Source: Acidobacteria bacterium RIFCSPLOWO2_12_FULL_66_21 (GTDB lineage Bacteria > Acidobacteriota > Vicinamibacteria > Vicinamibacterales > 2-12-FULL-66-21). From it: a stretch of DNA of 60,842 bases. This document shows, one piece after another, positions 43,694 to 58,690 of this stretch. Position numbers and translations under genes: made by a program. Below the pieces are notes generated by a model. It searched no databases and had not been told where the DNA came from. It saw nothing but the letters and a program-made list of their open reading frames with translations. The stretch covers positions 1 through 60,842 of the forward strand of contig MELC01000046.1 of assembly GCA_001767455.1 (NCBI GenBank), written 5' to 3'. Positions within the stretch are counted from its first letter, which is position 1; the number at the start of each line of letters is the position of its first letter.

Positions 43694-43803
43694 TTAGCCC
43701 TGATGCGACAAAGACAGAGTTGACTCAGGTTCCGGCCCTTGCGCCCTGCGCCTTGAGCCCAGCCCCCTGAGCCCAGCCCCCTGAGCTCTGAGCCCTGCGC
43801 CCT
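43694..43803. repeat. Heptad array, CCCTGAG type, with shared left flank
   Basis: The flank TAGCCCTGATGCGAC...CTCAGGTTCCGGC is followed from 43736 by about ten 7-base units (CCCTGCG, CCTTGAG, CCCAGCC, CCCTGAG). The same flank and array recur at 44734-44835. Confidence 0.85.
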
Positions 43804-43987
43804 CATCCACTCCCGCGTCGGGCCAAATCGCGCACCGCCTGGAACGAGAAGTCGTGCGGGCCTGCGGTCATGATGAAGATGCCCAGGGCGATCTTCGGCA
43901 GGAAGGCGACCGCGTAGAGCACGATGGCGTAGGCCAGCGCCCGCTCCCGGTCGATGCCGTACACGGCCAGTGCCAGGATCGTGAGGT
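43804..43987 (-). pseudogene. Fragment of the 3' end of the flippase-like gene
   Basis: The reverse strand encodes LAVYGIDRERALAYAIVLYA, LPKIALGIFIMTAGPHDFS and YQ/FQAVRD, matching the C-terminus of the gene at 44836. Homology ends at GTGAGGT (43981-43987). Confidence 0.85.
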
Positions 43988-44097
43988 GCCGGCAGCACGG
44001 CCAGCGGCTGATGCTTCGATTGATACATTGATACGCGGCGATTGCCGACCAAAACTCGACCGTCTCGACGTATATTAGGGGTGGGGTGAGGGGACCG

Positions 44098-44328
44098 ATG
44101 CAGACCATTGAGGAAATCCTGGACGCAGCGCGTCGCCTGTCGGACGGCGAGCGGAGGCGACTCGTCGAGGCGCTGCAGGGCGACGGGCGCGAGGCATCGA
44201 TCGACGAACAGCGTCGTGACGCAATGGCGAGTTGGCTCGGCCTCGCCGGGAGATTCCACTCCGCCTTCACCACCGTCTCCACCGAGAAGTACACGCATCT
44301 GGCAGACGTGTACGCCGACGAGCGGTGA
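44098..44328 (+). CDS. Small antitoxin preceding a PIN toxin
   Basis: 76 residues: MQTIEEILDAARRLSDGERR RLVEAL-type helix pair at the N-terminus, then a flexible acidic tail ending VYADER. It is not RHH; it resembles the short helical antitoxins that pair with PIN proteins. TATATT (44071-44076) and GAGGGG precede it. An ATG four codons upstream is an alternative start. Confidence 0.75.
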   Translation: MQTIEEILDAARRLSDGERRRLVEALQGDGREASIDEQRRDAMASWLGLAGRFHSAFTTVSTEKYTHLADVYADER

Positions 44329-44735
44329 ACCACGTCTTCGTTGACAGCGGCGGTTTCTTCGCGCATCTCGTCTCGGAGGACGCCCTCCACGCCCGTGCCA
44401 GGGAGCTCTTCGCGCAGGCCGAACGAGAGGACTGGCATCTCGTCACAACGAATGCCGTCGTGTACGAGACGCACGCGCTGCTGATCAACCGCGCTCGGGA
44501 GGGACGAGAGGCCGGACTTCGCTTCCTCGAGCATGTCCAGCGCGGGTTGTGCGAGATCGTACACGTGACCCAGGATGACGAAGCGCGCGCCATCTCCATC
44601 CTGCGCGACCACCAAGACAAGACGTACTCGTTCTGCGACGCGCTGAGCTTCGTGGTTATGGGGCGCCTCGGTCTCAACGAGGCAATCTCCTTCGACCGCC
44701 ACTTCCGGGAGTACGGAAGGGTCACGATTCTGTAG
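44325..44735 (+). CDS. PIN-domain toxin
   Basis: 136 residues from a GTG overlapping the antitoxin stop. VFVDSGGFFAHLVSED, VVYETHALLI, SFCDALSFVVM and AISFDRHF mark the PIN site. The stop codon is the first triplet of the repeat flank TAGCCCTGATGCGAC, so the module abuts duplicated DNA exactly. Confidence 0.87.
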   Translation: MNHVFVDSGGFFAHLVSEDALHARARELFAQAEREDWHLVTTNAVVYETHALLINRAREGREAGLRFLEHVQRGLCEIVHVTQDDEARAISILRDHQDKTYSFCDALSFVVMGRLGLNEAISFDRHFREYGRVTIL

Positions 44736-44835
44736 CCCTGATGCGACCAAAGTCAGGGCTGGCTCAGGTTCCGGCGCTGAGTCGGAACCCCCTGAACCTT
44801 CAACCCTGAACCCTGAGCCCTGAGCCCTGAGCCCT
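44734..44835. repeat. Second CCCTGAG-type heptad array with flank
   Basis: The flank is as at 43694. From 44788 there are about seven units (CCCTGAA, CCCTGAG). It lies directly downstream of the intact flippase-like gene. Confidence 0.85.
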
Positions 44836-45873
44836 TCACCGACCGAGTTCCTGTCGCACCGCTTGGTACGAAAAGCCGTGCGGCCCTACGGCCATGATGA
44901 GCACGCCAAGGGCGATCTTCGGGAGGAGGGCGACCGCGTAGAGCACGATGGCGTAGGCCAGCGCGCGCTCCCGGTCGATGCCGTACACGGCCAGCGTCAG
45001 GACCGTGAGGTAGTGGAAGACGCCGAGGTTGCCGGGGACGGACACGGCGGTGTTGCCGACCTGCAGCACGACCAGAAGGCAGATCGCCGAGGCGGCCGGG
45101 AGCGCGAACCCGAAGGCGACGAAGAGCAGGTAGTTCGTGCTCGCGGCCATCAGCAGGATCGCGGCGGACAGGCCCCAGAGCTGGGCGCTGGCCGACACGC
45201 TGCGCAGCGAGGAGAGGCCTGCGGCCGCCTCGTCGATGTGGCGAGCGGCGCGCATGTGAAAGCGTTCAGGCAGGCGGCGGGCGCCGCGCTGCATCCAATC
45301 CGCGGCCCTTCGCGCATCGAGTGTCAGCGCGATGACGACCGCAAGTGCCGCCGCGGCCAGGGCGACGAGCGCCTGCCCCGGTGCGTGGAGCCACTGCGGC
45401 AGGGAGACCGAAAGGAGGAGGAGGGTCGTGGCGAGGCCGAGGATCACGAGGTCCGCGAGCCTCTCAACGGCGAGCGTGGCGAGCACACGCGCGATCGGGG
45501 CACGGTCGGTGGCGCTCAGCAGGCCGGCGCGCGCCAGCTCGCCGAAGCGAAGAGGCAGGAGGATGTTGACGGTCTGGCCGATGAGCAGCGCGTATGCGAG
45601 AGTGCGCCAGCTCCACGCGCGATGGTCGGGGTAGAACAGCAGGCGCCACCGTGCCACACCGGCTGCCAGGGTCGCCGCCACTGAAACGAGCGCCACGGCG
45701 ACCCACGCCGCTGAAGCATCAGAGAGGGCGGACCCGAGCGTCTCGAAGCTGACCTGGCGAAACGCGAGCCAGAGGGCGGCGCCCGCGACGAGCACCTTGA
45801 GCGCGAGCCAGGCGGCACGGCGCGCACGTCCGGCCGCGCCCGTCGCGTCGCGCCCTGACGGCGCAAGGGTCAC
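44836..45873 (-). CDS. Flippase-like membrane protein (LPG synthase TM / AglD family)
   Basis: 345 residues from a GTG overlapping the upstream stop. About eight membrane helices; LALKVLVAGAALWLAFRQVS, RWRLLFYPDHRAWSW, LPLRFGELARAGLLS and SVPGNLGVFHYLTVL are typical of the PF03706 family, which includes AglD and the membrane part of MprF. A role in moving or modifying lipid-linked glycan is plausible. Its 3' end and the following repeat are duplicated at 43694-43987. Confidence 0.88.
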   Translation of the reverse strand: MTLAPSGRDATGAAGRARRAAWLALKVLVAGAALWLAFRQVSFETLGSALSDASAAWVAVALVSVAATLAAGVARWRLLFYPDHRAWSWRTLAYALLIGQTVNILLPLRFGELARAGLLSATDRAPIARVLATLAVERLADLVILGLATTLLLLSVSLPQWLHAPGQALVALAAAALAVVIALTLDARRAADWMQRGARRLPERFHMRAARHIDEAAAGLSSLRSVSASAQLWGLSAAILLMAASTNYLLFVAFGFALPAASAICLLVVLQVGNTAVSVPGNLGVFHYLTVLTLAVYGIDRERALAYAIVLYAVALLPKIALGVLIMAVGPHGFSYQAVRQELGR

Positions 45874-47546
45874 ACGGTCTCGTGCTGTTCGGGGTGGGGG
45901 TGGGTGGTCCCCGGCGCGTGCGCAGCGATCTCTGACCGGCTCTCTTCGCGGAACCTGGCGAAGACGAATATGCCGATGATGGTCCCCCCTCCCACAAAGA
46001 GGAAGTAGACAACGGCCACGACGAGCAGGCGGCTACCAGCAAGGGAAGATTCGGTGTTCACCGAGGGCGGGACCGTGATCTCGACCAACAAGCTGGTTGG
46101 GTTCAAGTTCTGCTGCGACAACGTGTCGTAAAACAGGTTCACGTTGTCGATCGTTGCCAGTAATTCCTCGAAAGTCTTGGGATATCGTTCGTGAAACACG
46201 TCCAGAAACTGCTTCTGGACTGCGGGGTTCGATCTCTTCGACGCACCCTCGAACACCGAAATCAGGTCCTCGTAATACGAACGTTCCTTCTCGAAATCGA
46301 CAAGCCTCATGCCGACGTCCGTGGACTTGTTGACCATCGTCTGGCGATATGCCGTGTCGTCCCCCTTCGTCCCAAGCTCGATCAGGCGGTCGAAAAAGGA
46401 ATCCCCCAGCTGGGGGATGAGAGCCGGAACGTTGCCCATTCCACCCGAACCGGACGACCGGGCTTCAGATCCCGCACTCGCGGCAGGAAGGTTGGCGCGC
46501 TGCTGCAAGTAACTTCGCAGACTGTTCTCGTAGACCTGGACCTGCCCCTTCGCGGCGTCTCGGTCGAGGTTGATCGTAAACAACTGGTTCCGCAAATATT
46601 GGATCGTGAGCGCGGCGTTCTTGGTGACGCCAATCGCGCGTACGAAACCGATCATGGGGCTGATCCGAAACTGCAGCAGGTCGTCCAGATTCGATTGCGC
46701 GTCGGTCAGGGTCATGCCGGTCGGGCCGACTCGCACAACGTTTGCGCCAGGCAACGATTGCAGAGCCGTGACGGCTCCCTGAAGTCTCCGGACTGCAATC
46801 CGAAGCATGTCGAGGCTGACAATGTAGTCTTCCTCGTCCATCAAGTCCTTCCGCACCATGTTCCGCGTAGGGATCGCCACGCGGTACTTCAACGCTCCCT
46901 TCTTCTGGTCCGCGTCCTTGGCATACGTGCTCAGGATATCGGCCAGGGTCTTTTGCACGAGCGTTGCCGGCATCTCCCGGAACCGCTCCGTTCGAACGAA
47001 GAGCAGCTGGAAGTCAGCGCTTGACAAGCCCTTGCTTCGAGCCTCGAACTCCTGCTCGATGCGCTGCCGGTCGACCGTCGTCAGCTTGGTGTCGGCGAGT
47101 TTCGCCAGAAATGTGCTTCTCAGTAACTCCAAACGGGGGTTCGACTGCTGGACGAATAGACCACTCTTGAAGCCTTCGAACCCACCGTACTGCTCGAGCT
47201 TGTTGGCCTTGTACACCTCCTCCAGGATAGGAGTCGACGCGATGTCGGACGGACCGAAAGGCATGCCGTTGGGATACTGCCCCTTCTCGGCTCCTTCGAA
47301 GAGTAGTCGGAAGCTCACCTGCGCAGTCTTCTGATTCGGGTACCAGACGTAGACGAAGGCGAGTCCCAACAGAAACACACCAATGGCGCCGCCGAAAGCC
47401 CGTGCGATGGTCCTCCGGAAATGCCACAATTCCATGACCTTCGGCCAAATTGCAATGCTCTCATCGTCGTAGATCTCGGTATGCATTTCTGCCGGCGGAC
47501 GAGCCTCCGTCGTCGGCTCGTTCTTCCTCGATTCTCTGTCGGACAT
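45870..47546 (-). CDS. Large Wzz-like chain-length/assembly protein
   Basis: 558 residues. Helix one is near residues 50-70 (FGGAIGVFLLGLAFVYVWY) and helix two near 520 (LLVVAVVYFLFVGGGTIIGI). Between them lies a long periplasmic helical region (LRNQLFTINLDRDAAKGQVQ, DVFHERYPKTFEELLATIDN) with a low-complexity serine/glycine stretch. The topology fits Wzz/GumC proteins, although it is longer than usual and has little of the standard Wzz domain. It may control length or form a bridge to the channel. It is coupled to the flippase-like gene. Confidence 0.75.
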   Translation of the reverse strand: MSDRESRKNEPTTEARPPAEMHTEIYDDESIAIWPKVMELWHFRRTIARAFGGAIGVFLLGLAFVYVWYPNQKTAQVSFRLLFEGAEKGQYPNGMPFGPSDIASTPILEEVYKANKLEQYGGFEGFKSGLFVQQSNPRLELLRSTFLAKLADTKLTTVDRQRIEQEFEARSKGLSSADFQLLFVRTERFREMPATLVQKTLADILSTYAKDADQKKGALKYRVAIPTRNMVRKDLMDEEDYIVSLDMLRIAVRRLQGAVTALQSLPGANVVRVGPTGMTLTDAQSNLDDLLQFRISPMIGFVRAIGVTKNAALTIQYLRNQLFTINLDRDAAKGQVQVYENSLRSYLQQRANLPAASAGSEARSSGSGGMGNVPALIPQLGDSFFDRLIELGTKGDDTAYRQTMVNKSTDVGMRLVDFEKERSYYEDLISVFEGASKRSNPAVQKQFLDVFHERYPKTFEELLATIDNVNLFYDTLSQQNLNPTSLLVEITVPPSVNTESSLAGSRLLVVAVVYFLFVGGGTIIGIFVFARFREESRSEIAAHAPGTTHPHPEQHETV

Positions 47547-47679: not shown

Positions 47680-48180
47680 TCGCCCTCGATGCGTGCCCGA
47701 TCGACCGGCGTCAGCTTCGGGTCGGATAACTTACTTGGTCTGGTACTCGTACGACAACAGCTCCAGGCCGGCGTTCGACTCGAGCGCGAGCATCGACTCC
47801 TTGAAGCTGGTGAAGTCCATGTATCGCTGCAGGTCGTTGGCCTTGTGCACTTGGTCGAGCACCGGCGTCGCCACGATCTCCGAGCTGCTGAACGGCGTAC
47901 CGTTCGGATACCTGCCCTGATCGGCGCCGTCGAACAGCACGCGGAATTGCAGGGTGCCGAAGCGATCCGCCGGCACCAGGAACGACGCGGCGATGAAGAG
48001 CACGGCGACGGCCGCCGCGGCGATCAGCACACCGTTCCGCAGCGTCTGCCGGTACGCCCAGAGAACCTCGAACATCGACTTCAACGAAATCTGATCGCCG
48101 TCATCATCCGGCGGAGACGGCGGCGTGACGTGGTTCTTGGCCAAGCCGGGATCCGGGTAGCGTGAGTGGGTGTCAGGCAT
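47680..48180 (-). pseudogene. Broken paralogue of the large Wzz-like gene
   Basis: MPDTHSRYPDPGLAKNHVTP, a helix near residue 55 and TLQFRVLFDGADQGRYPNGT align with the N-terminus of the intact neighbour. The ORF stops at 47731 in SYEYQTK. A tandem AAGT duplication (AAGTAAGTT) causes the frameshift; past it KLSDPKLTPVDRARIEGEF continues the homology before it is lost. Only the first 165 or so residues remain. Confidence 0.85.
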
Positions 48181-49338: not shown

Positions 49339-49352
49339 CTTAGCTAGCTAGA
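49331..49352. repeat. TAGCT pentamer repeat rich in stop codons
   Basis: TAGCTTAGCTTAGCTAGCTAG holds stop codons in several frames on both strands and contains the stop of the leftward SDR gene. Confidence 0.6.
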
Positions 49353-50055
49353 GCTGCCCCCCGTTGACATCGAGCACGGCGCCGTTGATGTATGACGCGG
49401 CGTCCGACGCGAGGAAGCCAATCGCCTCGGCGACTTCCCTTGGTTCGGCCAGCCGCCCCAAAGGGTTGGCGGCCGCCACGGCGTCGAGTTGCTCTAGCGT
49501 CGCGGCGGCGGCGAGCATGTCGGTCTTCGTCTGCGAGGGTGCCACGCAGTTGATACTGATTCCGTCACGCCCAAACGCGGCCGCCAACTGGCGCGTCAGC
49601 CCGACGACGCCGTACTTCGACGCGGTGTACGCGACCGAGGCGGTCCGGCTGTGGGACCGTCCGGCGATGGATGCTACGTTCACGATCCGACCGAAACCGT
49701 GGCGGCGCATGACGGGCAGCACGTGTTTGCAGCACAGATACGTGCCGATGAGGTTCGTCCGCAGCACCGTCTCCCAGTCGTCCACCGACAACGCGAGCGG
49801 ATCGCCAGTGGTAGCGATGCCCGCGCAGTTGACCAGGATGTCGATCCGGCCGAACGTCGCGACGACGTCGTCACACACCCGCCTGACGTCGGTTTCATCG
49901 GCGACGTCTCCGCGCCGCGTGAGCGGCGTATCGGCCAGGCCTCGCGCCAGGCCGACCGTCGTGATTCCTCGGCTGGAGAAGAGCACGACTGTCGCGCGAC
50001 CGATGCCGCGGGAGGCGCCCGTGACGAGCGCCACGCGTGCACCGGTATCAGACAT
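49348..50055 (-). CDS. Short-chain dehydrogenase/reductase (last gene of the sugar operon)
   Basis: 235 residues: VALVTGASRGIGRATVVLFS (TGxxxGIG), ILVNCAGIATTGDP, VNVASIAGRSH and the catalytic VAYTASKYGVVGLTR (YxxxK). SDR of FabG type acting on a sugar or polyol. The start overlaps the cytidylyltransferase stop by eight bases. Confidence 0.9.
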   Translation of the reverse strand: MSDTGARVALVTGASRGIGRATVVLFSSRGITTVGLARGLADTPLTRRGDVADETDVRRVCDDVVATFGRIDILVNCAGIATTGDPLALSVDDWETVLRTNLIGTYLCCKHVLPVMRRHGFGRIVNVASIAGRSHSRTASVAYTASKYGVVGLTRQLAAAFGRDGISINCVAPSQTKTDMLAAAATLEQLDAVAAANPLGRLAEPREVAEAIGFLASDAASYINGAVLDVNGGQL

Positions 50056-51217
50056 AGATGTGTTCCATGTCGCGACCGCCGCAGGCCAGACGAATCCCGG
50101 CCTCGGGGCTGGTGCACACGATGCTGTGCACGGTGCCGCGCGGCAGGTAGACGACGTCATGCCGACCTGCCTTGATGACGATTCCGTCTTCGAGCCGCCA
50201 CTCGAACTCACCCTCGAGCACAACCCACCACTCGTCGTGGGTGACGTGGCAATGCAGCTGAGCGCCATCGCCCTGAGGCTGGCGGATGAGCCCCGTTTGA
50301 TCGTCGCCGCTGTAAATCAGCAGGTGCAGCCACGGCGGCGCGCCCATCGTCCGCTTGATCTCGTCAATGTTGATGAGCCGCGCGTTCGCACGATCGGCGC
50401 GGTAGTTGACCACGCCGTCGCGGACCATCAACTCCTGCAGGTTGCTGTCGATGCTCCGCGTGGAATCGCGGAACCGGTGGGCGCCCGCGGCGACCTTGGA
50501 GCGCCGGTACCGAAGGGCTCCTTCGATGAGTCGCAGGTCGTCCCACGTGTCCGCGTCGAGCGCCTCGATGCGATTGAGCGCGAAGAACCCGTATTTCCCA
50601 CAGAACGTCGGCCCGTGCTCGTCCGGGATATCGCGGCGGAACGACGCCATGAAGGTCTCGGCCTTCCACCCGGTCATCGCCCACGTAATCAACTGCACCG
50701 GCGTAAGAGTCTGGGTTGGAATCTTACGGGCCATCAAGACGTTCAGCGGCCGACCGTCGAACAGCGCCTCGGTGTGCCGCTCTTCGACGGATAACAACGA
50801 GTCGTAGCCGTCCTCGACGAGCATGTGCATGAACGCGCGGATCGACTCGGGCCGGAGCAGCGGCGACGTAGTGTGCACGAGCGCTAGATACTCTGCCTCG
50901 ACCGCCTCCATGAAGTCGGCGAGAAAATGATCGTGGGTCTGGCAGCGGGCGCCGGCACAGTCGCACGACTTGTTGCGCATGGTGCAGGCCGAGCCGCCCC
51001 GTGCCGGGTCGCGACGGTAGAACTTCACCCCGAGCATCTCGGCAAACCGTTGGCCAACGTCATGCTCCGAGTTGATGTAGATCTCGTCAAAGACCCCGGA
51101 CTCCTTGCAGGCACGGGTGACGTAGAACGCCAGCGGGTAACCGTCAACGAGGATCAGGTTCTTGTCCGGAATCCTGGTGCTGCCGAGCAGCATCGGAATC
51201 ATGGCGACGTTCTTCAT
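50048..51217 (-). CDS. NeuA-like cytidylyltransferase fused to a cupin domain
   Basis: 389 residues. Residues 1-230 are an acylneuraminate cytidylyltransferase-like domain: MIPMLLGSTRIPDKNLILVD (the GSxRIPxKN CTP-binding motif) and VHTTSPLLRPESIRAFM. Residues about 72-87 hold an insert with four cysteines (CTMRNKSCDCAGARC), which could bind metal. From about 290 a cupin follows: QLHCHVTHDEWWVVLEGEFE and LPRGTVHSIVC with the histidine/glutamate metal set. It probably activates an acid sugar or cyclitol as CMP conjugate, the cupin isomerising or sensing it. The substrate is inferred. The ATG overlaps the upstream stop. Confidence 0.85.
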   Translation of the reverse strand: MKNVAMIPMLLGSTRIPDKNLILVDGYPLAFYVTRACKESGVFDEIYINSEHDVGQRFAEMLGVKFYRRDPARGGSACTMRNKSCDCAGARCQTHDHFLADFMEAVEAEYLALVHTTSPLLRPESIRAFMHMLVEDGYDSLLSVEERHTEALFDGRPLNVLMARKIPTQTLTPVQLITWAMTGWKAETFMASFRRDIPDEHGPTFCGKYGFFALNRIEALDADTWDDLRLIEGALRYRRSKVAAGAHRFRDSTRSIDSNLQELMVRDGVVNYRADRANARLINIDEIKRTMGAPPWLHLLIYSGDDQTGLIRQPQGDGAQLHCHVTHDEWWVVLEGEFEWRLEDGIVIKAGRHDVVYLPRGTVHSIVCTSPEAGIRLACGGRDMEHIYV

Positions 51218-51690
51218 CTCGGCTCCGCGGTGAACAATCGAGTGGCAACCTTGAATACGAGCTTCCGCACCCGGGCCGGGGCGCCGGCGGAGAGTGCGGG
51301 CATGTGCGCGTCCTGCGGCTGGAAGACAACAAAGTGTCCGGGGCGAAGATCCAGCACCACCGGTGCGACCGCCGGTGGCTCGTAGAGAATCACGTCCCGG
51401 TCCGCGTCGTAGGCCTGGCACGGCGACAGTTCCTCGGCCGGCCACACGCGAATCGCCTCCCGACCGTCGAGGACGACGTGCACGTCCGCGTAGACGCGAT
51501 GCGACTCGAGCACCGCCGCCTCCGGCGGGCTCGTCGTGAAGTCGAGGATCTTCACGAACATGTCCTGACCTCGAATAGGCCGCTCGCCCACCGGCAGATC
51601 CGGCCGGGCTGCCGCGGCGAACGCGAGCACCTCCCGCCACCAGTCGCCGGCGAAGTATGCTGGCGCGTGAGTGAACGTGTCGAAGATCAT
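51214..51690 (-). CDS. YhcH/YjgK/YiaL (NanQ-like) family protein
   Basis: 158 residues starting MIFDTFTHAPAYFAG. VKILDFTTSPPEAAVLESHR, VYADVHVVLDGREAIRV and PGHFVVFQPQDAHMP are the cupin-like YhcH blocks with the metal-binding histidines. NanQ members are sialic-acid anomerases, so this supports an acid-sugar intermediate. It is coupled on both sides by ATGA overlaps. Confidence 0.9.
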   Translation of the reverse strand: MIFDTFTHAPAYFAGDWWREVLAFAAAARPDLPVGERPIRGQDMFVKILDFTTSPPEAAVLESHRVYADVHVVLDGREAIRVWPAEELSPCQAYDADRDVILYEPPAVAPVVLDLRPGHFVVFQPQDAHMPALSAGAPARVRKLVFKVATRLFTAEPR

Positions 51691-52421
51691 TGGGCCTCCG
51701 GTGTGAGCGTCTGCATGTACTTGCGCTCGTAGTCCGCAGACAATCGGTCGAGTATCGCCATCGCCTCGGGCGTAGCGCTGCCGGCGGCCAACTCGCGGCG
51801 CGTCGCGAACTCCCGCGCTTCGTCCGACCCCTTCGCGGGCGGCTGCCAGCCGTACTCTGAATAGATGGGCCGCCCGATCCCTTCGGCGTACATCTTCCTC
51901 GGGACGTTCTGCCTTTTCATCTCGCGGCGGGTGACCCCGGTGACCTCGGTGCCGAGCAACGTCTCCAGTTGCCGCATGTAGGGCCACGGGTCGATCACGA
52001 ACCGCTCGAACGGGATGACGAGCACCTGGCCCTGCCCGACCGGCGTCAGCGCCGCCAACATGCGCTCGTGCCTGCGACCCATCTCGTCCACCATATGGAT
52101 GGCACGATCCATGGCGTTGGACTCGAGGAACTTCCGCTCCCAGCCGCGGGCAAACCACGGGACCGTGCCGCCCTCCGCTTCGATCCAGATCGAGAAATCG
52201 CGGGGATCGGACGCAAACCGATCCATGTAAAGGGACTGCTGCTTGATCATGTAAAGGGGGTGCCTGACCACCTCAACGATCTTCCCCCGGTCACCCAGCG
52301 CGTCCAGCACGAGCGGCGTGTGGACGAACAGCAGGTGCGCCATCATGGTCTTGCCGCAGTCTGGCAGGCCGTCGACGAACACGACCTGGCCGACTATGTG
52401 CGGAGGCCGGACGGCCTTCAA
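51687..52421 (-). CDS. Sulfotransferase-like P-loop protein
   Basis: 244 residues from a TTG overlapping the upstream stop (TTGA); a GTG 13 codons later is an alternative. FVDGLPDCGKTMMAHLLF is a P-loop of the sulfotransferase/kinase type, and VEVVRHPLYMIKQQSLYMDR matches the PAPS-binding region of sulfotransferases (RxPxxxxxS-like). YMRQLETLLGTEVTGVTRRE is the usual C-terminal helix. It may sulfate the glycan. The exact family is uncertain. Confidence 0.65.
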   Translation of the reverse strand: MKAVRPPHIVGQVVFVDGLPDCGKTMMAHLLFVHTPLVLDALGDRGKIVEVVRHPLYMIKQQSLYMDRFASDPRDFSIWIEAEGGTVPWFARGWERKFLESNAMDRAIHMVDEMGRRHERMLAALTPVGQGQVLVIPFERFVIDPWPYMRQLETLLGTEVTGVTRREMKRQNVPRKMYAEGIGRPIYSEYGWQPPAKGSDEAREFATRRELAAGSATPEAMAILDRLSADYERKYMQTLTPEAQ

Positions 52422-53428
52422 CTCAACCCCTGCCCCTCCGGCCGGGCGTCGGCCTGGTAAATTCGATCGACGAGGCGCATGAGCTTCAGCGCGTCCGCCG
52501 AGGTGCCGTAATGGATCGGCGAATCCGAGGCAACGGCCGAGAGGAAATGTTCGACCTCGTAGCGCCACGAGTTATTGACGCTGTACCGCGTGCATTCCTC
52601 GTCGCTCCAGCGTGCGGCGGGCGCGGCGGTGCGATTCCGCGCCACGGTCATCGCCTCTTCGCCGTACGAGCCGGACGTGGTCAATAAACCGTTGATTATG
52701 ATATTGCCATGCTCGAGGAACATCTCAAGCGAGAACAGGTGCCGCCACTGCGTCATGGTCGAATGGAGCGAAGCCACGACACCGGCTTGGTTGCGCAGAA
52801 TGGCGAACACATTGTCCTCGACGTCCAGCTTCCAGTAGATCGTTGAGACAAACGCATGCACCTCGTCGAAGTCCCCGGCCATCATCAGGAACAGATCGAG
52901 CATGTGCAGGCCCTGATCGATCAGGATGCCGCCGCCCGCCAGCGCCCGCTTCGACCGCCAGTTGCTGTAGAAGCTCTCGTCGACGCTTTTGCCGTACCGC
53001 CCGCGCATCCACAGCAGCCGCCCATGCACCCCGGAATCGATGAGGGCTTTCGCGCGGATGATGCTGTCATGGTGGCGGTGATTGAGGCCGTACATGAGCT
53101 TCCGGCCGCCCGATGCGCGCTCCGCCGCGATAATGGCCTCGACGCCGTGCGCGTTGAAGGCCGGCGGCTTCTCGCAGAAGACGTGTTTCCCGGCGCCGAG
53201 CGCCCGGATCGTCAGCTCCTGGTTCAAATGGTTCGGCGTGCAGATGAACACGGCGTCGATCGACGGGTCGGCGATGATCGCGTCGGTGCCCACCGTCGCG
53301 ACGCCGGGCACGCTGGGCGACGTCCCGGGATCGGCCACCGCGACGACCCGCGCCTGTGACGACCGGGTCACCTCGTGCAAACGGATGCGGCCCATCGACC
53401 CTAACCCGATAATGCCAACCCTGATCAT
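52418..53428 (-). CDS. Gfo/Idh/MocA-family oxidoreductase
   Basis: 336 residues: MIRVGIIGLGSMGRIRLHEV (Rossmann), VFICTPNHLNQELTIRAL, GKHVFCEKPPAFNAHGVEAI (the EKP motif with catalytic Lys) and GGGILIDQGLHMLDLFLMMA (the DxxxH motif). It oxidises or reduces a sugar or cyclitol using NAD(P). The start overlaps the previous stop (ATGA). Confidence 0.93.
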   Translation of the reverse strand: MIRVGIIGLGSMGRIRLHEVTRSSQARVVAVADPGTSPSVPGVATVGTDAIIADPSIDAVFICTPNHLNQELTIRALGAGKHVFCEKPPAFNAHGVEAIIAAERASGGRKLMYGLNHRHHDSIIRAKALIDSGVHGRLLWMRGRYGKSVDESFYSNWRSKRALAGGGILIDQGLHMLDLFLMMAGDFDEVHAFVSTIYWKLDVEDNVFAILRNQAGVVASLHSTMTQWRHLFSLEMFLEHGNIIINGLLTTSGSYGEEAMTVARNRTAAPAARWSDEECTRYSVNNSWRYEVEHFLSAVASDSPIHYGTSADALKLMRLVDRIYQADARPEGQGLS

Positions 53429-54759
53429 GACTGACTCACCAACTCCAGCACCTCGTCGAGGACGCGGTCTGCGCAGGCGCCGAGGTGCCAACGCCGCCGC
53501 AAAACCCGAAAGTGGGCTTCCCGGCTCGACGGCCGGAATAGGAGCCGCGCGACGGCCGGAGCGATGTCGCCAGCCCTGGTGGCGTACGGCAACGCACGCT
53601 GGGCGGCGAACGGCATGATCGTCATCCCCGCTCGCGTGGTGCGCATTGTGCGCCGCACGCCGGCGGGGCACAGCGTGTGAAAGCCAATGGGGCACTCCTC
53701 GGGTCTGAGGCCTACGGCGCTCGCGCCGAGCGCGGTCGCCTCGATCGACGCGTTCGAGTAGCTACTCGCGAACACATCCGCCGCCATCATGGTGTCCTCG
53801 AAGGAGACCGTGCGTTGCCCGATCACCAGCGGCGTGAAGTTGACGACTCGGCCGTCGTACGCCGCCGTGGCGCGGGCGGCCGCCCAGTTGAGGCCCAGGC
53901 GGCCATCGGCCGGATCGGCCTCCCGCGGGTGTTCCTGGGTTGCGAGTATGACGCCCCTCGTGCCCAGACCCGCCCGGTTCATCGCGCCGACAAAAGCATC
54001 GAGCGCCTCGACCTCTGCACGCTCCCGATGGGTCGGCTGCACGAAAAACACGACCAACGGTTCGTTCGGGCCCACACCAATTCGCTGTCGTGCACGGGCC
54101 CGCCGCGCCGGAGTTGCGCGACCCACGAGCCGGTCGAGGGTGTACAAGCCGCGGACGGCTCGCAGGCGGTTGCGCGGAATCCCCAGTCGGCGTGCCGAAA
54201 GCTCGACGCCCCGCTCGTCAATCTCCAGGTACCGCGTCGCCAGCGCCTCACGCCGCAACGCGACGGACAGCCGGTCGCGCCACGCGCGGTTCTCGACGCC
54301 GGCCGCCGTGCCCCAGGCGTCGCGCACGCGGACGGTGGGAATCCCCACGCGGCTCGCGGCGATCGCGAGCAGCTGATCCGCGCCGAGCTGTTCGGTCGCA
54401 TCTGTCAGCAGGATGGCGGACGGCCGTGACTCGGCCAGGTAACACACCAGCCACGCCACCATCTGCTCAACCAGGCGGCGGGCCCGAACGGGCCGCGTCC
54501 AGTCATCGCGCTCGATGCGCTCGGGCCCTGCGTAGACCGGCAGGGACGGATACCGTTCGCGCGCCGTGCGAAACGAATACACGTGTGGCAGTCGGCTCGC
54601 GGTCAGATTGGACCACGCCGGCCCGCTCGCCAGAATCTCCACGCAGAGGCGTCGCCGACGTGCGGCCGCTGCAAGTGAGGCCGCACCGCCTGCAGCGCTC
54701 GGATGACGGGCAGCGATGAGGATCGTCCGCCCCCGGCGAGTGGACACCCTCGGTGTCAC
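53425..54759 (-). CDS. Predicted GT-B-type surface glycan protein
   Basis: 444 residues from a GTG overlapping the cyclase stop. The first half has alpha/beta character (LCVEILASGPAWSNLTASRL, SAILLTDATEQLGADQLLAI) and the second has VVFFVQPTHRERAEVEALDA, VILATQEHPREADPADGR and SFEDTMMAADVFASSYSNAS, a layout like polysialyl- or CDP-glycerol-type transferases in which a HP or EHP motif binds the nucleotide. The family is not firmly recognised. As the only transferase-like gene in the operon it is the likely enzyme that adds the special sugar. Confidence 0.6.
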   Translation of the reverse strand: MTPRVSTRRGRTILIAARHPSAAGGAASLAAAARRRRLCVEILASGPAWSNLTASRLPHVYSFRTARERYPSLPVYAGPERIERDDWTRPVRARRLVEQMVAWLVCYLAESRPSAILLTDATEQLGADQLLAIAASRVGIPTVRVRDAWGTAAGVENRAWRDRLSVALRREALATRYLEIDERGVELSARRLGIPRNRLRAVRGLYTLDRLVGRATPARRARARQRIGVGPNEPLVVFFVQPTHRERAEVEALDAFVGAMNRAGLGTRGVILATQEHPREADPADGRLGLNWAAARATAAYDGRVVNFTPLVIGQRTVSFEDTMMAADVFASSYSNASIEATALGASAVGLRPEECPIGFHTLCPAGVRRTMRTTRAGMTIMPFAAQRALPYATRAGDIAPAVARLLFRPSSREAHFRVLRRRWHLGACADRVLDEVLELVSQS

Positions 54760-55838
54760 GCCACCGGCCGGCCGGCAGCCTGCGCCGGCAGTTCTGCAAG
54801 AAACTCACGACAGATGTCCCGAAACCGATCGTCATTCGGGTACCGGTCGAGAAAAACGTCGCCGGGGCCGCGCAGCAACACCAGCGACAATACCGAGCCG
54901 CTGTGTTTCTTGTCGCGCGCCAACGCGTCGAAGAACGCCCCATCAGGGATGGGAACCGTGGCGAACGCTCCGCAGTTGGCCGCGAGCAGCTCGTGCAGGA
55001 ACTCGAAGGTCGAGCGGTCGAGCAGGCCGAACTTCCAGGACACGAAGTTCGCGAAGTCCATCCCGATCGTCACGGCGATCCCATGGGGAACGGCATAGTG
55101 TGTCGCGCTCTCGATCGCGTGGCCGAAGGTGTGACCGTAGTTGAGCACCAGGCGAACGCCCGTGTCGAACTCGTCGGCCTCGATCCGCACCTGCTTGATC
55201 TCGAGCGACCGGCGGATGTAGTGCCGCACCAGGGGGCGATCGGTGGCCAGCCGCGAATAGTCGCGAGCGAGCGCGCGCACGTCATCCCCGCCGCTTACCA
55301 CGTGCACTTTGATGACCTCGCCAAGCCCCGATCGCAGATCGGCCTCGTCTAGGGTGTCCAGGACGTCGGTAGACACGAGGATGTCGGTAGGGGGCGTGAA
55401 CGTCCCGAGCTGGTTCTTGAAGGGGCCGACGTTGATGGACGATTTCGATCCGATGCAACTGTCGGCCTGGGCGAGCAGCGTCGTCGGATAGAACGTCCAG
55501 GGCAGTCCGCGCATGACCGTGGCGGCGATGAAACACACGATGTCCTGGATGATGCCCCCGCCGACCGCCACGAGCGTGCAGTCGCGACGCAGCCCGTGGT
55601 CCAGCAGGTGCAGGACGTACTCCGGCATCCGCTCCAGTGACTTGTTGAGTTCCGTGGCCTCAATGCGCAGCGTCGAGGACGCCGCCATGGGGCCCGCGAG
55701 CCGGTCCGCGTAGAGGTCCGCGACACGGGTATCGACGATCACCATCGCGCGCGGCCCCAGGGCGTCGAGCCCCTCGAACGCCGTCCCGAACCGAACCCGG
55801 TAGGGCCCCCGATGCGACTGAATCACCAGATCACGCAC
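54756..55838 (-). CDS. Dehydroquinate-synthase-like sugar phosphate cyclase
   Basis: 360 residues from a GTG eight bases inside the SDR gene; a TTG further upstream is possible. VAVGGGIIQDIVCFIAATVM, YPTTLLAQADSCIGSKSSIN, DLRSGLGEVIKVHVVSGGDD and LVLNYGHTFGHAIESATHY carry the NAD and zinc residues (Glu of GEVIK, HTFGH) of the DHQS superfamily. The SKSSINVGPFKNQLG segment differs from standard AroB (usually GGKTGIN), so it may be a different cyclase (for example EEVS-like, using a heptulose phosphate). With no other shikimate genes nearby, a glycan role is more likely. Confidence 0.9.
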   Translation of the reverse strand: MRDLVIQSHRGPYRVRFGTAFEGLDALGPRAMVIVDTRVADLYADRLAGPMAASSTLRIEATELNKSLERMPEYVLHLLDHGLRRDCTLVAVGGGIIQDIVCFIAATVMRGLPWTFYPTTLLAQADSCIGSKSSINVGPFKNQLGTFTPPTDILVSTDVLDTLDEADLRSGLGEVIKVHVVSGGDDVRALARDYSRLATDRPLVRHYIRRSLEIKQVRIEADEFDTGVRLVLNYGHTFGHAIESATHYAVPHGIAVTIGMDFANFVSWKFGLLDRSTFEFLHELLAANCGAFATVPIPDGAFFDALARDKKHSGSVLSLVLLRGPGDVFLDRYPNDDRFRDICREFLAELPAQAAGRPVA

Positions 55839-56544
55839 AGGTGAAGCCCCCGTCAACGACCACGGTCTGCCCGGTCATGAAGGTGTTGTCGTCGCCGCAG
55901 AGGAACGCTACGTAACGCGCGATTTCCTCCGGGCGCGCGAGCCGCCGCATCGGGACCTGCTGCACCAGCTCGGCGATGCCGGCGCTGCCGAGCACCGTGC
56001 GGGTCAACTCCGTGTCCACAATCCCCGGCGCCAGGCAGTTGACGAGCACGTTGTCCTCCGCGACCTCGAGCGCCAGCGCCCGCGTCAGGCCGAACAAACC
56101 AAACTTGGACGCCGAATACGCCGATCGCCCAGCCTTGCTGACCACGCCGAAGATCGAGGTGATGTTGACGATGCGGCCGTACCGCTCTGCGCGCATGCCC
56201 GGCACGACGGCGCGGCACAAGAGATACGGGGCGACGAGATTCACGTCGAGAATCCGCTCGAGGTCCAGGCGGGCATACCCCTCAACGGGGCCCGCCTTGT
56301 TCACGCCGGCGTTGTTCACGAGTACCGAAAACCCGCCGCGTGCCACTTCTTCAGCGAAGGCTTCCGCTCGCGCGGGATCTGACAAGTCGATCGCTAGGTA
56401 ACTGCAACCATTCGGTGCCGCCCCGTCGGGCATGGTCCCGGTCACCACCACGTCGAGCCCCGCGTCACGAAGCGCCACGGCCGTGGCCGCGCCGATGCCG
56501 CGCGTGCCGCCCGTGACGAGAGCTTTGCGCCGACGGGACGTCAT
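55831..56544 (-). CDS. Short-chain dehydrogenase/reductase (FabG-like)
   Basis: 237 residues: KALVTGGTRGIGAATAVALR, LVNNAGVNKAGPVEGYARL, VNITSIFGVVSKAG and SAYSASKFGLFGLTRALALE (YxxxK). It precedes the cyclase and probably sets a hydroxyl on the same intermediate. The start overlaps the SIS stop (ATGA). Confidence 0.92.
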   Translation of the reverse strand: MTSRRRKALVTGGTRGIGAATAVALRDAGLDVVVTGTMPDGAAPNGCSYLAIDLSDPARAEAFAEEVARGGFSVLVNNAGVNKAGPVEGYARLDLERILDVNLVAPYLLCRAVVPGMRAERYGRIVNITSIFGVVSKAGRSAYSASKFGLFGLTRALALEVAEDNVLVNCLAPGIVDTELTRTVLGSAGIAELVQQVPMRRLARPEEIARYVAFLCGDDNTFMTGQTVVVDGGFTCA

Positions 56545-57158
56545 GTGGAAGGTGTGGCCGCGCCCGAGTCGCGCGCGCCCCGCGTCGCTGGGTACTCCAT
56601 GAACCCCACCAGCAGATCGCAGACCATGAGCAGCCAGATCTGATGCACCGATTCAACAACGTTGTAAGCGCGGCTGTCAACCCACAGCGACAGATCACCG
56701 AGTTGGCGCAGCGGGTTGTCCGGAGCGAACCCGGTAAGTGTGACCACGGTCAGTCCGCGCCCGCGGGCGTATTCGGCCGCCCGTAGGACATTGGGCGACC
56801 AGCCGCTCGAGCTGATGAGGATCACCAGGTCGGCGTCGTCGGCGTACGCCGCGAGTGCCTGTTCAATCCACCGCTCGTAGCCGAAGTCATTCGCGAAACA
56901 GGTGATCAGGTCGACGTCATGGAACGTCACCGCGCGCACACCGGCGGCCTTCGTGTAGTCCGCCGCAGCGTGGCTGGCGATCGCCGAGCTGGCGCCGTTG
57001 CCGGCGCAGATCAGTTTGCCGCCTCGCGCCCGTGTCGCGGTGACGAGTTCCTTCAGCCGGACGAGCGATGCGATCACGTCTGCGTCGAGGGCCCGGCGGT
57101 AATGCCCGAGGCAGTCACGCAGCCAATCGGCGTCCGGGGTCGGATAGGTTAGAGCCAA
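56541..57158 (-). CDS. SIS-domain sugar isomerase (GmhA-like)
   Basis: 205 residues from a TTG at the end of the broken upstream gene. KLICAGNGASSAIASHAAAD and LVILISSSGWSPNVLRAAEY are the SIS phosphosugar sites; length and GNGxS fit sedoheptulose-7-phosphate isomerases. It would feed a heptose or heptulose phosphate to the pathway. The reading frame is also open upstream through an smc fragment (to 57656), but that part is unrelated. Confidence 0.85.
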   Translation of the reverse strand: MALTYPTPDADWLRDCLGHYRRALDADVIASLVRLKELVTATRARGGKLICAGNGASSAIASHAAADYTKAAGVRAVTFHDVDLITCFANDFGYERWIEQALAAYADDADLVILISSSGWSPNVLRAAEYARGRGLTVVTLTGFAPDNPLRQLGDLSLWVDSRAYNVVESVHQIWLLMVCDLLVGFMEYPATRGARDSGAATPST

Positions 57159-57322
57159 AAGACCTTCTCCTTGGGAACACCGAGCGATCTCAGCCGCGCC
57201 CGAACGCCTTCGCGGTCTTCGAACGCCGCCACGATCAATTGGTCGAACGGAGTGGCGCCGAAACCGCGTTCGGTCGGCTCGCTGCTCGGCTGCACGGGCA
57301 GTCCGAAGAAGCACGCCCTGCA
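57149..57322 (-). pseudogene. C-terminal remnant of a lost operon gene
   Basis: One frame reads LPVQPSSEPTERGFGATPFD and AFEDREGVRARLRSLGVPKE, ending KVFWL and stop just inside the SIS start. This looks like the end of a Rossmann-type sugar-related enzyme. The rest was replaced by smc DNA. Confidence 0.6.
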
Positions 57323-57596
57323 TCGCCGCCTGCTCCACCTGGCTCAGCATCAGGCGCACTTCCGCGGCCGCCGTCGGCTTGCGGTCATCGCTGCCGCTGA
57401 AGATCACGTCCTCCATGCGGTCGCCGCGCATGCTCTTGGCGCTTTGCTCACCCAAGACCCAAGTGATGGCGTCCACGACGTTGCTCTTGCCGCAGCCGTT
57501 GGACCCGACAATCGCGGTCACGCCGTCGTCGAGGGCAAGCTCCGCAGGCTCGGAAAAGCTCTTGAATCCAGCCATATGCAGTTTTGCGAGGCGCAT
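57323..57596 (-). pseudogene. 5' fragment of an smc gene
   Basis: MRLAKLHMAGFKSFSEPAEL and VGSNGCGKSNVVDAITWVLG (Walker A) are the SMC ATPase head, ending after about 88 codons at LMLSQVEQ. Upstream, TACACT and a TGCCCC/GGGGCA hairpin (57621-57639) look like the smc promoter region. A complete smc should exist elsewhere in the genome. The gap 57640-57721 has nothing else. Confidence 0.88.
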
Positions 57597-57721
57597 CGAA
57601 AGTTGAACGAAGTGTACCCCTGCCCCAGTAGATGGGGCAAGGGCAAATCGGGCCACTGGAAGGCAGATCGAATCGAGATTCAGGATGGCCCGCGCCGGTC
57701 GACGGCGTTCACGGTCGGCTT

Positions 57722-58690
57722 CTACGCGTGCTCGCGCAGGGCGTACTCGGCCTCCGGCACCAACTGCTCCACCGTCTCTCCACGGGCCCAGCGCACCACG
57801 GCTTCCACTGCGTCGTACTCCATCCGGAACCGGCAGTCCTCGGACATCGACCCCATGTGGCTGGTCAGTAGGCAGTTATCGATCCCGCCCAGTTCGCCGT
57901 GATACGGTTCGACCTGGAACACGTCCACGGCGGCGCCCGCGAAGCGGTCGGCGCGCAGCGCCTCGGCCAGTGCGGCCTCATTAACGATGCCGCCCCGGGC
58001 GGTGTTGATGAGGAAGGCATCGCTCTTCAACCTGGCGAGCACCGAGGCGTCAAACAAGTTGCGCGTCGCGGCGGTCAGCGGCACGTGCAGCGTGAGCACG
58101 TCCGACTCGCGGCAGATCGTGTCGAAGTCCACCCAGGTGACCGCCTGCGGCACGGTGATCGACCGGATGTCGTGCGCCAGAATGCGGCCGCCAAAGGGTT
58201 CGAGCAGTTTGATCACCCGGCTGCCGATCCGGCCAACGCCGATCACGCCCACCGTCACCTCGGACAGCCGGCGCCCCATGATGCGCTCCCAGCCGCCGCC
58301 GTGCGCGCGCGCGTTGGCGTGGTGAACGCCGCGCAGGAGCGCGACCATCAGGCCGATCGTCAGTTCGGCGACGGCCGGCGACGGACCGTCGGGCGTGTAG
58401 GCCACGGCAATGCCACGCCGACGCGCCTCGAGCAAGTCCACGTTGTCGAGGCCGATGCCCACCCGCGAGACAAGACGAAGGCGCGGCGCCGCCGCGAAGA
58501 CCTGCTCGCCGATGGGTTCGGTGCCGGCGACCAGGCACTCGACATCGCCGATGAGACCGGTCAATTCCGTCTGGGTCAGTCGACGACCAAAGGGGTTGAT
58601 GCAGTAGTCGAGGCCGGCCTGCTCCAGCAGATCAAGCGGGGCGCGGTTCTTCTGCCCAAAGGGCACCGTCGTGATCAGCACGCGGGACAT
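57722..58690 (-). CDS. D-isomer-specific 2-hydroxyacid dehydrogenase (PGDH-like)
   Basis: 322 residues: VSRVGIGLDNVDLLEARRRG, VGVIGVGRIGSRVIKLLEPF (NAD Rossmann), FLINTARGGIVNEAALAEAL (catalytic Arg) and TSHMGSMSEDCR (catalytic His). It reduces a 2-keto acid or oxidises a hydroxy acid. In this operon it could act on an acid-sugar precursor rather than serine synthesis. It is upstream of the smc insert. Confidence 0.9.
   Translation of the reverse strand: MSRVLITTVPFGQKNRAPLDLLEQAGLDYCINPFGRRLTQTELTGLIGDVECLVAGTEPIGEQVFAAAPRLRLVSRVGIGLDNVDLLEARRRGIAVAYTPDGPSPAVAELTIGLMVALLRGVHHANARAHGGGWERIMGRRLSEVTVGVIGVGRIGSRVIKLLEPFGGRILAHDIRSITVPQAVTWVDFDTICRESDVLTLHVPLTAATRNLFDASVLARLKSDAFLINTARGGIVNEAALAEALRADRFAGAAVDVFQVEPYHGELGGIDNCLLTSHMGSMSEDCRFRMEYDAVEAVVRWARGETVEQLVPEAEYALREHA

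Follow-up and report, generated by a model that had tools for sequence, protein, structure and literature searches.

What might be made by an operon that places an AroB-like cyclase beside a sialic-acid-type cytidylyltransferase? The question is raised by contig MELC01000046.1 of Acidobacteria bacterium RIFCSPLOWO2_12_FULL_66_21 (60,842 nucleotides; the whole stretch analysed is called the window), where nine genes run along the minus strand from 57158 to 49348 in the order SIS isomerase, short-chain dehydrogenase (SDR1), cyclase, 444-residue protein, Gfo/Idh oxidoreductase, sulfotransferase-like protein, YhcH protein, NeuA-like/cupin protein and second short-chain dehydrogenase (SDR2). Our tentative answer is that the operon may make a sugar activated with cytidine monophosphate (CMP), probably carbocyclic and ulosonic-acid-like, or a mimic of such an acid, of an undescribed kind and for a surface glycan. 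The genes concerned are the following.

57722–58690, minus strand: D-isomer 2-hydroxyacid dehydrogenase (2HADH), upstream of the operon on the same strand (PF02826, 171.5 bits)
57249–57596, minus strand: 5′ smc fragment, in frame ahead of the SIS gene and outside the pathway (PF02463, 88.6 bits)
56541–57158, minus strand: SIS-domain sugar phosphate isomerase, GmhA-like, with a predicted start (PF13580, 47 bits)
55831–56544, minus strand: SDR1, short-chain dehydrogenase paired with the cyclase (PF13561, 174 bits)
54756–55856, minus strand: cyclase P0007, AroB-related sugar phosphate phospho-lyase of family TIGR04425 (427 bits; also tree and residues)
53425–54759, minus strand: 444-residue protein P0006, without a Pfam or NCBIfam match and with a poor structural model
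52418–53428, minus strand: Gfo/Idh/MocA oxidoreductase (PF22725, PF01408, PF02894)
51687–52421, minus strand: sulfotransferase-like protein, marginal (PF13469, 26.7 bits, cut-off 27)
51214–51690, minus strand: YhcH/YjgK/YiaL family protein, possibly anomerase-like (PF04074, 117.8 bits; TIGR00022, 93 bits, cut-off 45.5)
50048–51217, minus strand: NeuA/PseF/KdsB-like cytidylyltransferase fused to a cupin, P0002 (PF02348, 50.7 bits; PF07883, 37.8 bits)
49348–50055, minus strand: SDR2, short-chain dehydrogenase and last gene of the operon, its ATG overlapping the stop of the NeuA-cupin gene (PF13561, 183 bits)

Neighbouring genes of the operon overlap by 4 bases six times, by 8 once and by 26 once, given the starts that we chose, four of which are TTG or GTG. 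The overlapping leftward run of nine genes with a 2HADH gene upstream, as described in the initial annotation, was borne out by gene calls and family matches, and the reported lack of NeuB-like synthase and aminotransferase genes was confirmed for these ten genes by family scans; NeuB homologues lie elsewhere in the genome (three PF03102 matches, one of them weak). A canonical operon for N-acetylneuraminic acid (Neu5Ac), 3-deoxy-D-manno-octulosonic acid (Kdo), legionaminic acid (Leg) or pseudaminic acid (Pse) is ruled out by Pfam and NCBIfam scans of the operon genes, in agreement with the mismatch to all four routes that had been claimed.

From the protein families we infer substrates, products and the sequence of reactions, as well as the ring and the role of CMP as donor. 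The SIS protein would prepare a sugar phosphate, and an ulosonate phosphate resembling 3-deoxy-D-arabino-heptulosonate 7-phosphate (DAHP) would be supplied by the cell or by a partner enzyme. The TIGR04425 cyclase, a predicted NAD-type phospho-lyase with the active site of dehydroquinate synthase (DHQS), would accept such a 3-deoxy-2-ulosonate phosphate, either DAHP itself or a near analogue of it, expel phosphate and close a dehydroquinate-like carbocycle, in which C(OH)(COO−) would resemble the anomeric carbon found in sialic acid or Kdo. SDR1 would reduce the ring ketone, the Gfo/Idh protein, 2HADH and SDR2 would probably adjust further keto and hydroxyl groups, and the NeuA-like/cupin protein would activate the product with cytidine triphosphate (CTP), attaching CMP. 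An aminotransferase, none of which is encoded in the operon, would add nitrogen in many relatives, and a GT29 sialyltransferase-like enzyme would transfer the product in many phage relatives. The first suggestion, a CMP-linked carbocyclic or ulosonic sugar, stays the best reading, with the product itself a prediction.

By sequence, the cyclase is placed in an uncharacterised clade sister to AroB and is not a housekeeping AroB. P0007 scored 427.2 bits against TIGR04425 (cut-off 400; residues 12–355 of 366 on model positions 1–347 of 348) and 249.5 bits against the aroB model TIGR01357 (3-dehydroquinate synthase), below its cut-off of 305; contig 65 of the genome encodes another protein, its own AroB, which groups with AroBs on the tree. 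Cyclase relatives were fetched from bacterial genomes and viral contigs, giving 95 loci with the window; the bacterial ones are those among the matches listed, so that bacterial members are under-sampled. After removal of 14 near-duplicate loci, all 81 sugar-cassette cyclases fell into one clade of a 116-row tree (Shimodaira–Hasegawa approximate likelihood-ratio support 97), apart from 25 of 30 AroBs, aminoDHQS, sedoheptulose-7-phosphate (S7P) cyclases and EboD, and the remaining five AroB-labelled rows branched beside it; the AroB set consisted of 27 of at least 70 AroB-like loci (L048–L117) plus three other AroBs. A careful tree of 42 rows again united the 20 cassette cyclases it held (support 100/100), and forcing P0007 in with 16 AroBs was rejected (approximately unbiased test, p-AU 0.0002). 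Housekeeping AroB is excluded by the model score under cut-off, the separate clade, the p-AU and the genome's own AroB; a grouping with it, named beforehand as the finding that would undo the proposal, was not seen.

The family is sparsely distributed in the sampled bacteria. TIGR04425 exceeded its cut-off in one of 297 sampled genomes from the window's phylum, namely the window genome itself, and in 5 of 398 sampled from the phylum of an Undibacterium carrier, the carrier included; a protein search among 40 near relatives found the cyclase in one, again the window's own genome. A plasmid search for close relatives found none at 1e-45, and nine GenBank phage records held matches of 28–37% identity, four annotated as 3-dehydroquinate synthase and five without annotation. 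Structure 2d2x, the comparison for 2-deoxy-scyllo-inosose synthase (a type with no sequence in the alignments or tree), scored lower than bacterial AroBs.

What the cyclase may act on is suggested by its pocket. According to PMC6262012, the DAHP pocket of Staphylococcus aureus DHQS comprises 11 residues. Mapped through an alignment that holds Vibrio cholerae AroB and 30 further AroBs, the S. aureus enzyme not among them, their counterparts in P0007 were all identical (11/11: D132, K138, N148, E180, K183, K221, R235, N239, H242, H246 and K317). Ten of them, all but K183, were invariant in 81 of 81 cassette cyclases; at K183, the phosphate-site Lys, there was Lys in 54 of 81, His in 24 and Arg in 3, the His mostly in type-B rows (22 of 30), and Lys in the window, L038, L218, L287, L288 and L289. 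At the positions of K221, N239 and H246, S7P cyclases have other residues: M, D and P in ValA (4p53), L197 and L198, and M, A and P in 5tpr. We take these fingerprint positions to be DHQS K250, N268 and H275 in Aspergillus nidulans numbering. Two residues, Q104 and C134, also serve as a signature of the cassette clade, either one being present in 80 of 81 cassette cyclases and in 0 of 30 AroBs.

Because all 11 DAHP-pocket residues are kept and the enzyme differs from S7P cyclases, its substrate is more likely to be a DAHP-like 3-deoxy-ulosonate phosphate than a heptulose phosphate. Of the earlier proposal for the cyclase, assignment to the sugar phosphate cyclases stands, and the heptulose-phosphate-type substrate is disfavoured by the residues. 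An S7P cyclase was rejected as a candidate, since all three fingerprint positions differ in P0007 (K, N and H) and its clade is separate. Correspondingly, it is very unlikely that P0007 makes a valiolone-type C7 cyclitol in the style of acarbose or validamycin: a GmhA-like SIS protein that could feed such an enzyme and an inositol-dehydrogenase-type Gfo/Idh protein are both in the operon, but the fingerprint differs from that of four S7P cyclases and matches AroB, and S7P cyclases and EboD fall in another clade. Nucleotide activation of a carbocycle is known in C7-cyclitol pathways, for example that of acarbose, and these pathways likewise combine a sugar phosphate cyclase with dehydrogenases; the operon departs from them in cyclase fingerprint and clade and in having a CMP-type rather than a GDP- or ADP-type transferase.

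The intact pocket also suits a true second DHQS that boosts 3-dehydroquinate, the product then being drawn from ordinary shikimate-pathway intermediates (quinate, shikimate). P0007 indeed resembles AroB in fold family, metal ligands and every listed DAHP-pocket residue, yet it differs in clade, signature residues and surface-sugar gene context. The signature argues that substrate or outcome differs from plain conversion of DAHP to dehydroquinate; together with the aroB score under cut-off and the rejected AroB grouping, it makes a second DHQS improbable, and the accompanying CMP transferases would still need explanation.

The gene set recurs elsewhere, in L289, L038, L041, L042, L287 and L164; a lack of conservation, the other finding named beforehand as undoing the proposal, was not seen either. 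A 4.1-Mb Pseudomonadota contig (L289) carries NeuA-cupin, SDR, 2HADH, cyclase, SDR, Gfo and SIS genes on one strand, that is, seven genes of six families, each also in the window, with one SDR adjoining NeuA-cupin as SDR2 does here. Five or six of the window's families were found in L038, L041, L042, L287 and the viral contig L164. The closest bacterial relatives among the matches listed (L038, L039, L041 and L042) share SIS, SDR, cyclase, Gfo and 2HADH; Gfo/Idh relatives of 41–51% identity lie at most 7 kb from the cyclase in these four and L120, and 2HADH relatives lie at most 4 kb from it in these four, L120, L164, L175 and L289. In L038, L041 and L287 a KdsB-like CMP transferase stands instead of NeuA-cupin, together with a HisC-like aminotransferase. 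The core genes thus recur together across phyla, beyond a chance neighbourhood, which is ruled out for them by this recurrence across phyla and viral contigs and by co-occurrence statistics. A loose assembly of unrelated surface-polysaccharide genes without a common product is accordingly hardly to be expected and, for the core, largely refuted; adjacent operon genes moreover overlap. What speaks for it is the mosaic nature of the region, with its truncated smc gene, and the fact that no counterpart of P0003, P0004 or P0006 turned up in the related loci.

Among the 95 loci, 34 had a thiamine-diphosphate enzyme and an HpcH aldolase, 20 that enzyme and NeuB, 23 NeuA-type and SIS genes, and 18 other combinations; the window, whose SIS frame as called is chimeric (see below), was for that reason tallied as NeuA without SIS, and it belongs to the NeuA and SIS cassette type. 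'NeuA-type' in this tally and that of the 81 non-redundant loci also covers some CMP transferases that lack the cupin fusion (L038, L138, L142, L145, L148, L156, L159 and L175 among them). Across the 81 loci, HpcH aldolase (28) and NeuB (16) never shared a locus, and NeuA-type genes co-occurred with the thiamine enzyme in one. Both the aldolase and NeuB families make 3-deoxy-2-keto acids, and their presence in relatives fits the DAHP-like residue evidence. Separately, a second cassette type, seen in L033, L119, L132, L152, L171 and others (viral contigs and some bacteria), combines cyclase and SDR with an acetolactate-synthase-like thiamine enzyme, an RfbH-like enzyme and an epimerase (the last two recognised by eye) and either HpcH aldolase or NeuB, and resembles a route to a branched or ring-bearing deoxysugar.

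Viral contigs were also searched with NeuA-cupin and the matches pooled with the earlier loci, which gave 45 non-redundant NeuA-cupin loci, window included, counting only matches of at least 280 residues (L260, with 233, falls below this filter). Of the 69 loci from that search, the last 19 (L263–L281) were left uncounted, their matches to the transferase part being short or weak and several lying beside NeuB. SIS was present in 43 of the 45, class III aminotransferase in 35 and a GT29-like gene in 33 (>60 bits) or 23 (>100 bits, the window having none); aminotransferase or GT29-like genes occurred in 39, the window not among them. Thirty of the 45 carried the cyclase, every one with an SDR, and none of these 30 had a HAD-like match, whereas nine of the 15 cyclase-less loci encoded a small HAD-like protein and six had neither (p 6e-6, relatedness not corrected for). 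On the NeuA tree, which lacks L248, the distribution of the HAD-like protein takes three changes to explain and that of the cyclase six.

The HAD-like protein has DxDG, K and DD motifs that were invariant in five aligned members, the first motif reading DFDKV in L258. Its HAD part had no Pfam match in the four tested and a PHROG match named phosphoheptose isomerase, and its top Foldseek hits were mostly HAD-type phosphatases (heptose bisphosphate phosphatase, phage AfhF; best E 0.005). In five HAD loci (L229, L242, L246, L250 and L258) this part is fused to SIS and adjoins an HpaI-type aldolase, and in the HAD locus L224, a viral contig, a DAHP synthase-type enzyme (6957–7817) adjoins aminotransferase and NeuA-cupin. 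The simplest reading is that cyclase plus SDR and the HAD-like protein would be two ways to remove phosphate from the same type of precursor before CMP activation, the HAD route by hydrolysis and the cyclase route by phosphate-losing ring closure followed by reduction.

The same exchange supports another product, an open (hemiketal) ulosonic acid with no ring in the CMP-linked residue, for which the AroB-like enzyme and SDR would remove phosphate, reset or deoxygenate carbons, or build a separate cyclitol decoration. Replacement of cyclase and SDR by the HAD-like protein in 9 of 15 cyclase-less loci implies that a ring is not needed there for CMP activation, six HAD-bearing NeuA-cupin loci have DAHP synthase-type or aldolase enzymes, and the operon encodes a YhcH-family protein. 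We nevertheless consider an open product rather unlikely, as the DHQS pocket, K183 aside, is intact in all 81 cassette cyclases and those members of the superfamily that have been characterised are known as cyclases (PMC5133447).

Several observations weigh against the carbocyclic CMP-activated product that we prefer. The operon has no ulosonate synthase, and the tertiary alcohol of a CMP-linked carbocycle could not leave through an oxocarbenium ion, so that GT29-type transfer would be unusual chemistry. The HAD-bearing relatives suggest that ring closure is not required, 15 of 45 NeuA-cupin loci lack the cyclase and six of these lack the HAD-like protein too, and a relatedness-aware paired test of HAD versus cyclase on the NeuA tree has too few pairs for significance. 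Nor are the exclusions absolute for ulosonate enzymes: a NeuB/thiamine-enzyme cassette lies beside a NeuA cassette in L218, a locus found later, and weak DAHP-synthase-like matches (21% identity) occur in one pair of cyclase loci (L240/L241) and in L262, a locus devoid of both cyclase and HAD-like protein. Substrates may differ within the cyclase clade, given the change of K183 to His in 22 of 30 type-B cyclases.

Further such points concern the late steps. The window's NeuA-cupin protein passes PF02348 (cut-off 22.6 bits) but scores only 41.5 bits against PseF (cut-off 205.7) and at most 33 bits against KdsB-type models; its N-terminal PARxGS-K/T-R-I-P-x-KN loop is not kept, reading PMLLGSTRIPDKN where most relatives keep PAR; and its C80, C89 and C94 lie within a Cys insertion common to L151 and L161, with which it forms a subgroup lacking the usual PAR loop. 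Low scores, altered loop and insertion together make nucleotide, CTP use and substrate uncertain for the window's protein. YhcH-type proteins are linked to anomers, of which a carbocycle would have none, and the YhcH gene hints by analogy at an anomeric, non-carbocyclic sugar; here the family assigned in the initial annotation holds (PF04074, TIGR00022) and the NanQ identity does not, since the score against the anomerase equivalog NF040884 is 83.1 bits with a cut-off of 160. Finally, the window has no recognised transferase, and a GT29 search of its genome and of five bacterial carriers came back empty; this search returned no control match either and hence shows little. The inserted loop with three shared Cys (P0002 residues 80–94, L151, L160 and L161) is perhaps a metal site.

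The module is widespread in viral contigs, many of them T4-like in appearance: among representative neighbours, PHROG matches were obtained to the clamp loader, the processivity factor, a DnaB-like helicase and the translation repressor, in clusters each found in 7 to 10 loci. A PF03237 terminase was present in 4 of 16 viral records searched, none of the 16 being rated 90% complete, and PHROG gave no match at 1e-5 for the single cyclase, the single NeuA-cupin and the single GT29 protein compared with it. Near viral NeuA-type genes lies a GT29 sialyltransferase-like gene, whose one member tested, from L140, scored 29.6 bits against PF00777 (cut-off 23); 16 aligned members share motifs that are presumably the sialyl motifs. 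This cluster occurred in 15 of 27 NeuA loci versus 0 of 54 others among the 81 non-redundant cyclase loci (Fisher p 2e-9). GT10 and GT11 fucosyltransferase-like genes were also seen near the viral CMP cassette in L118, L130, L138, L144, L148 and L151 (one member per family tested), and such neighbours suggest a larger phage-encoded oligosaccharide.

The boldest form of the carbocyclic proposal is that a CMP-activated carbocyclic ulosonic-acid mimic exists, quinate-like and aminated in many relatives, which an AroB-like enzyme makes from DAHP-like acids, which GT29-type pseudo-sialyltransferases transfer, and which has spread among bacteria and T4-like phages. We regard this bold case, with its categorically new residue, as doubtful. 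The CMP-Kdo pathway consists of KdsD, KdsA, KdsC and KdsB. The operon resembles it in having a SIS isomerase, a phosphate-removing step and then a PF02348 CMP transferase, and the HAD-bearing relatives resemble the Kdo set; it differs in having an AroB-like phospho-lyase and SDR in KdsC's place, no Kdo8P synthase and a cupin fused to its CMP transferase. With the Neu5Ac, Leg and Pse routes it shares a NeuA/PseF-like CMP transferase, and the phage relatives a GT29-like transferase, but it lacks NeuB, NeuC, PseB and LegB, has a cyclase, and leaves the genome's NeuABC-like set elsewhere. TIGR04425, of which P0007 is a member, is an NCBIfam hypothetical equivalog for an AroB-related putative sugar phosphate phospholyase, and its model is named only in those terms.

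Literature searches, with most subscription journals outside their reach, found no paper with the TIGR04425 name or accession and, by titles and abstract openings of the papers listed, nothing describing this gene set; on NeuA-cupin with cyclase genes there was one unrelated paper, and searches on phage sialyltransferases and sugar genes and on carbocyclic O-antigen sugars led no further. The words cyclase and dehydroquinate do not appear in the accessible part of the bradyrhizose paper PMC4743980. Pelagimyophages carry lipopolysaccharide-type genes (PMC7029224) and prophage enzymes alter pseudaminic acid (PMC12053666), according to the accessible portions of both papers, which make no mention of this gene set. 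If the carbocyclic proposal holds, shikimate-type ring closure would be joined to activation of the CMP-sialic-acid type, metabolic branches thought to be separate, and TIGR04425 would gain a testable substrate class. The survey suggests that many environmental phages carry much of the route to an unknown glycan residue, and that phages may alter the surfaces of their hosts or virions with sugars overlooked in glycan surveys. The exchange of HAD-like protein for cyclase makes the question directly testable with two enzymes.

As to the remaining gene calls, the SIS domain first reported stands and its 371-residue frame (56541–57656) does not, being a chimera whose residues 23–110 match SMC_N; 57249–57596 shares 73% identity with the genome's own intact SMC. 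Because the longer frame begins inside this fragment, the start was put at the TTG at 57158, behind AAGGAG, which is the more likely start. The SIS protein scored 73.3 bits against the GmhA model TIGR00441, under its cut-off of 209, and is recognised as an SIS_2 domain. The label 'GT-like' once given to P0006 found no backing: no Pfam or NCBIfam model matched, the AlphaFold model is poor (mean predicted local distance difference test 47), no relative but the protein itself was recovered among 396 sampled genomes of the phylum, and a search of viral contigs for close relatives gave none. The sulfotransferase-like gene, with a predicted TTG start and GGAGGGG upstream, keeps its label as a marginal one, 26.7 bits lying just under the PF13469 cut-off of 27.

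Beyond the operon, contig 78 of the same genome (L209, 6378–10139) carries a NeuA-, NeuB- and NeuC-like set with an SDR, recognised by eye except for NeuB; with this set the organism may be able to produce an ordinary nonulosonic acid as well. The smc fragment ahead of the SIS gene (57249–57596) looks like a scar of recombination or transfer. Two further apparent remnants were noted by eye in the window: the C-terminal end of a lysylphosphatidylglycerol (LPG)-synthase-like membrane protein is repeated nearby in diverged form (43803–44750 and 44836–45873), and 47731–48180 resembles a truncated copy of the 558-residue protein at 45870–47546. An SLBB/Poly_export protein and a Wzz-like chain-length protein at 32363–36240 show that the window also has polysaccharide export genes.

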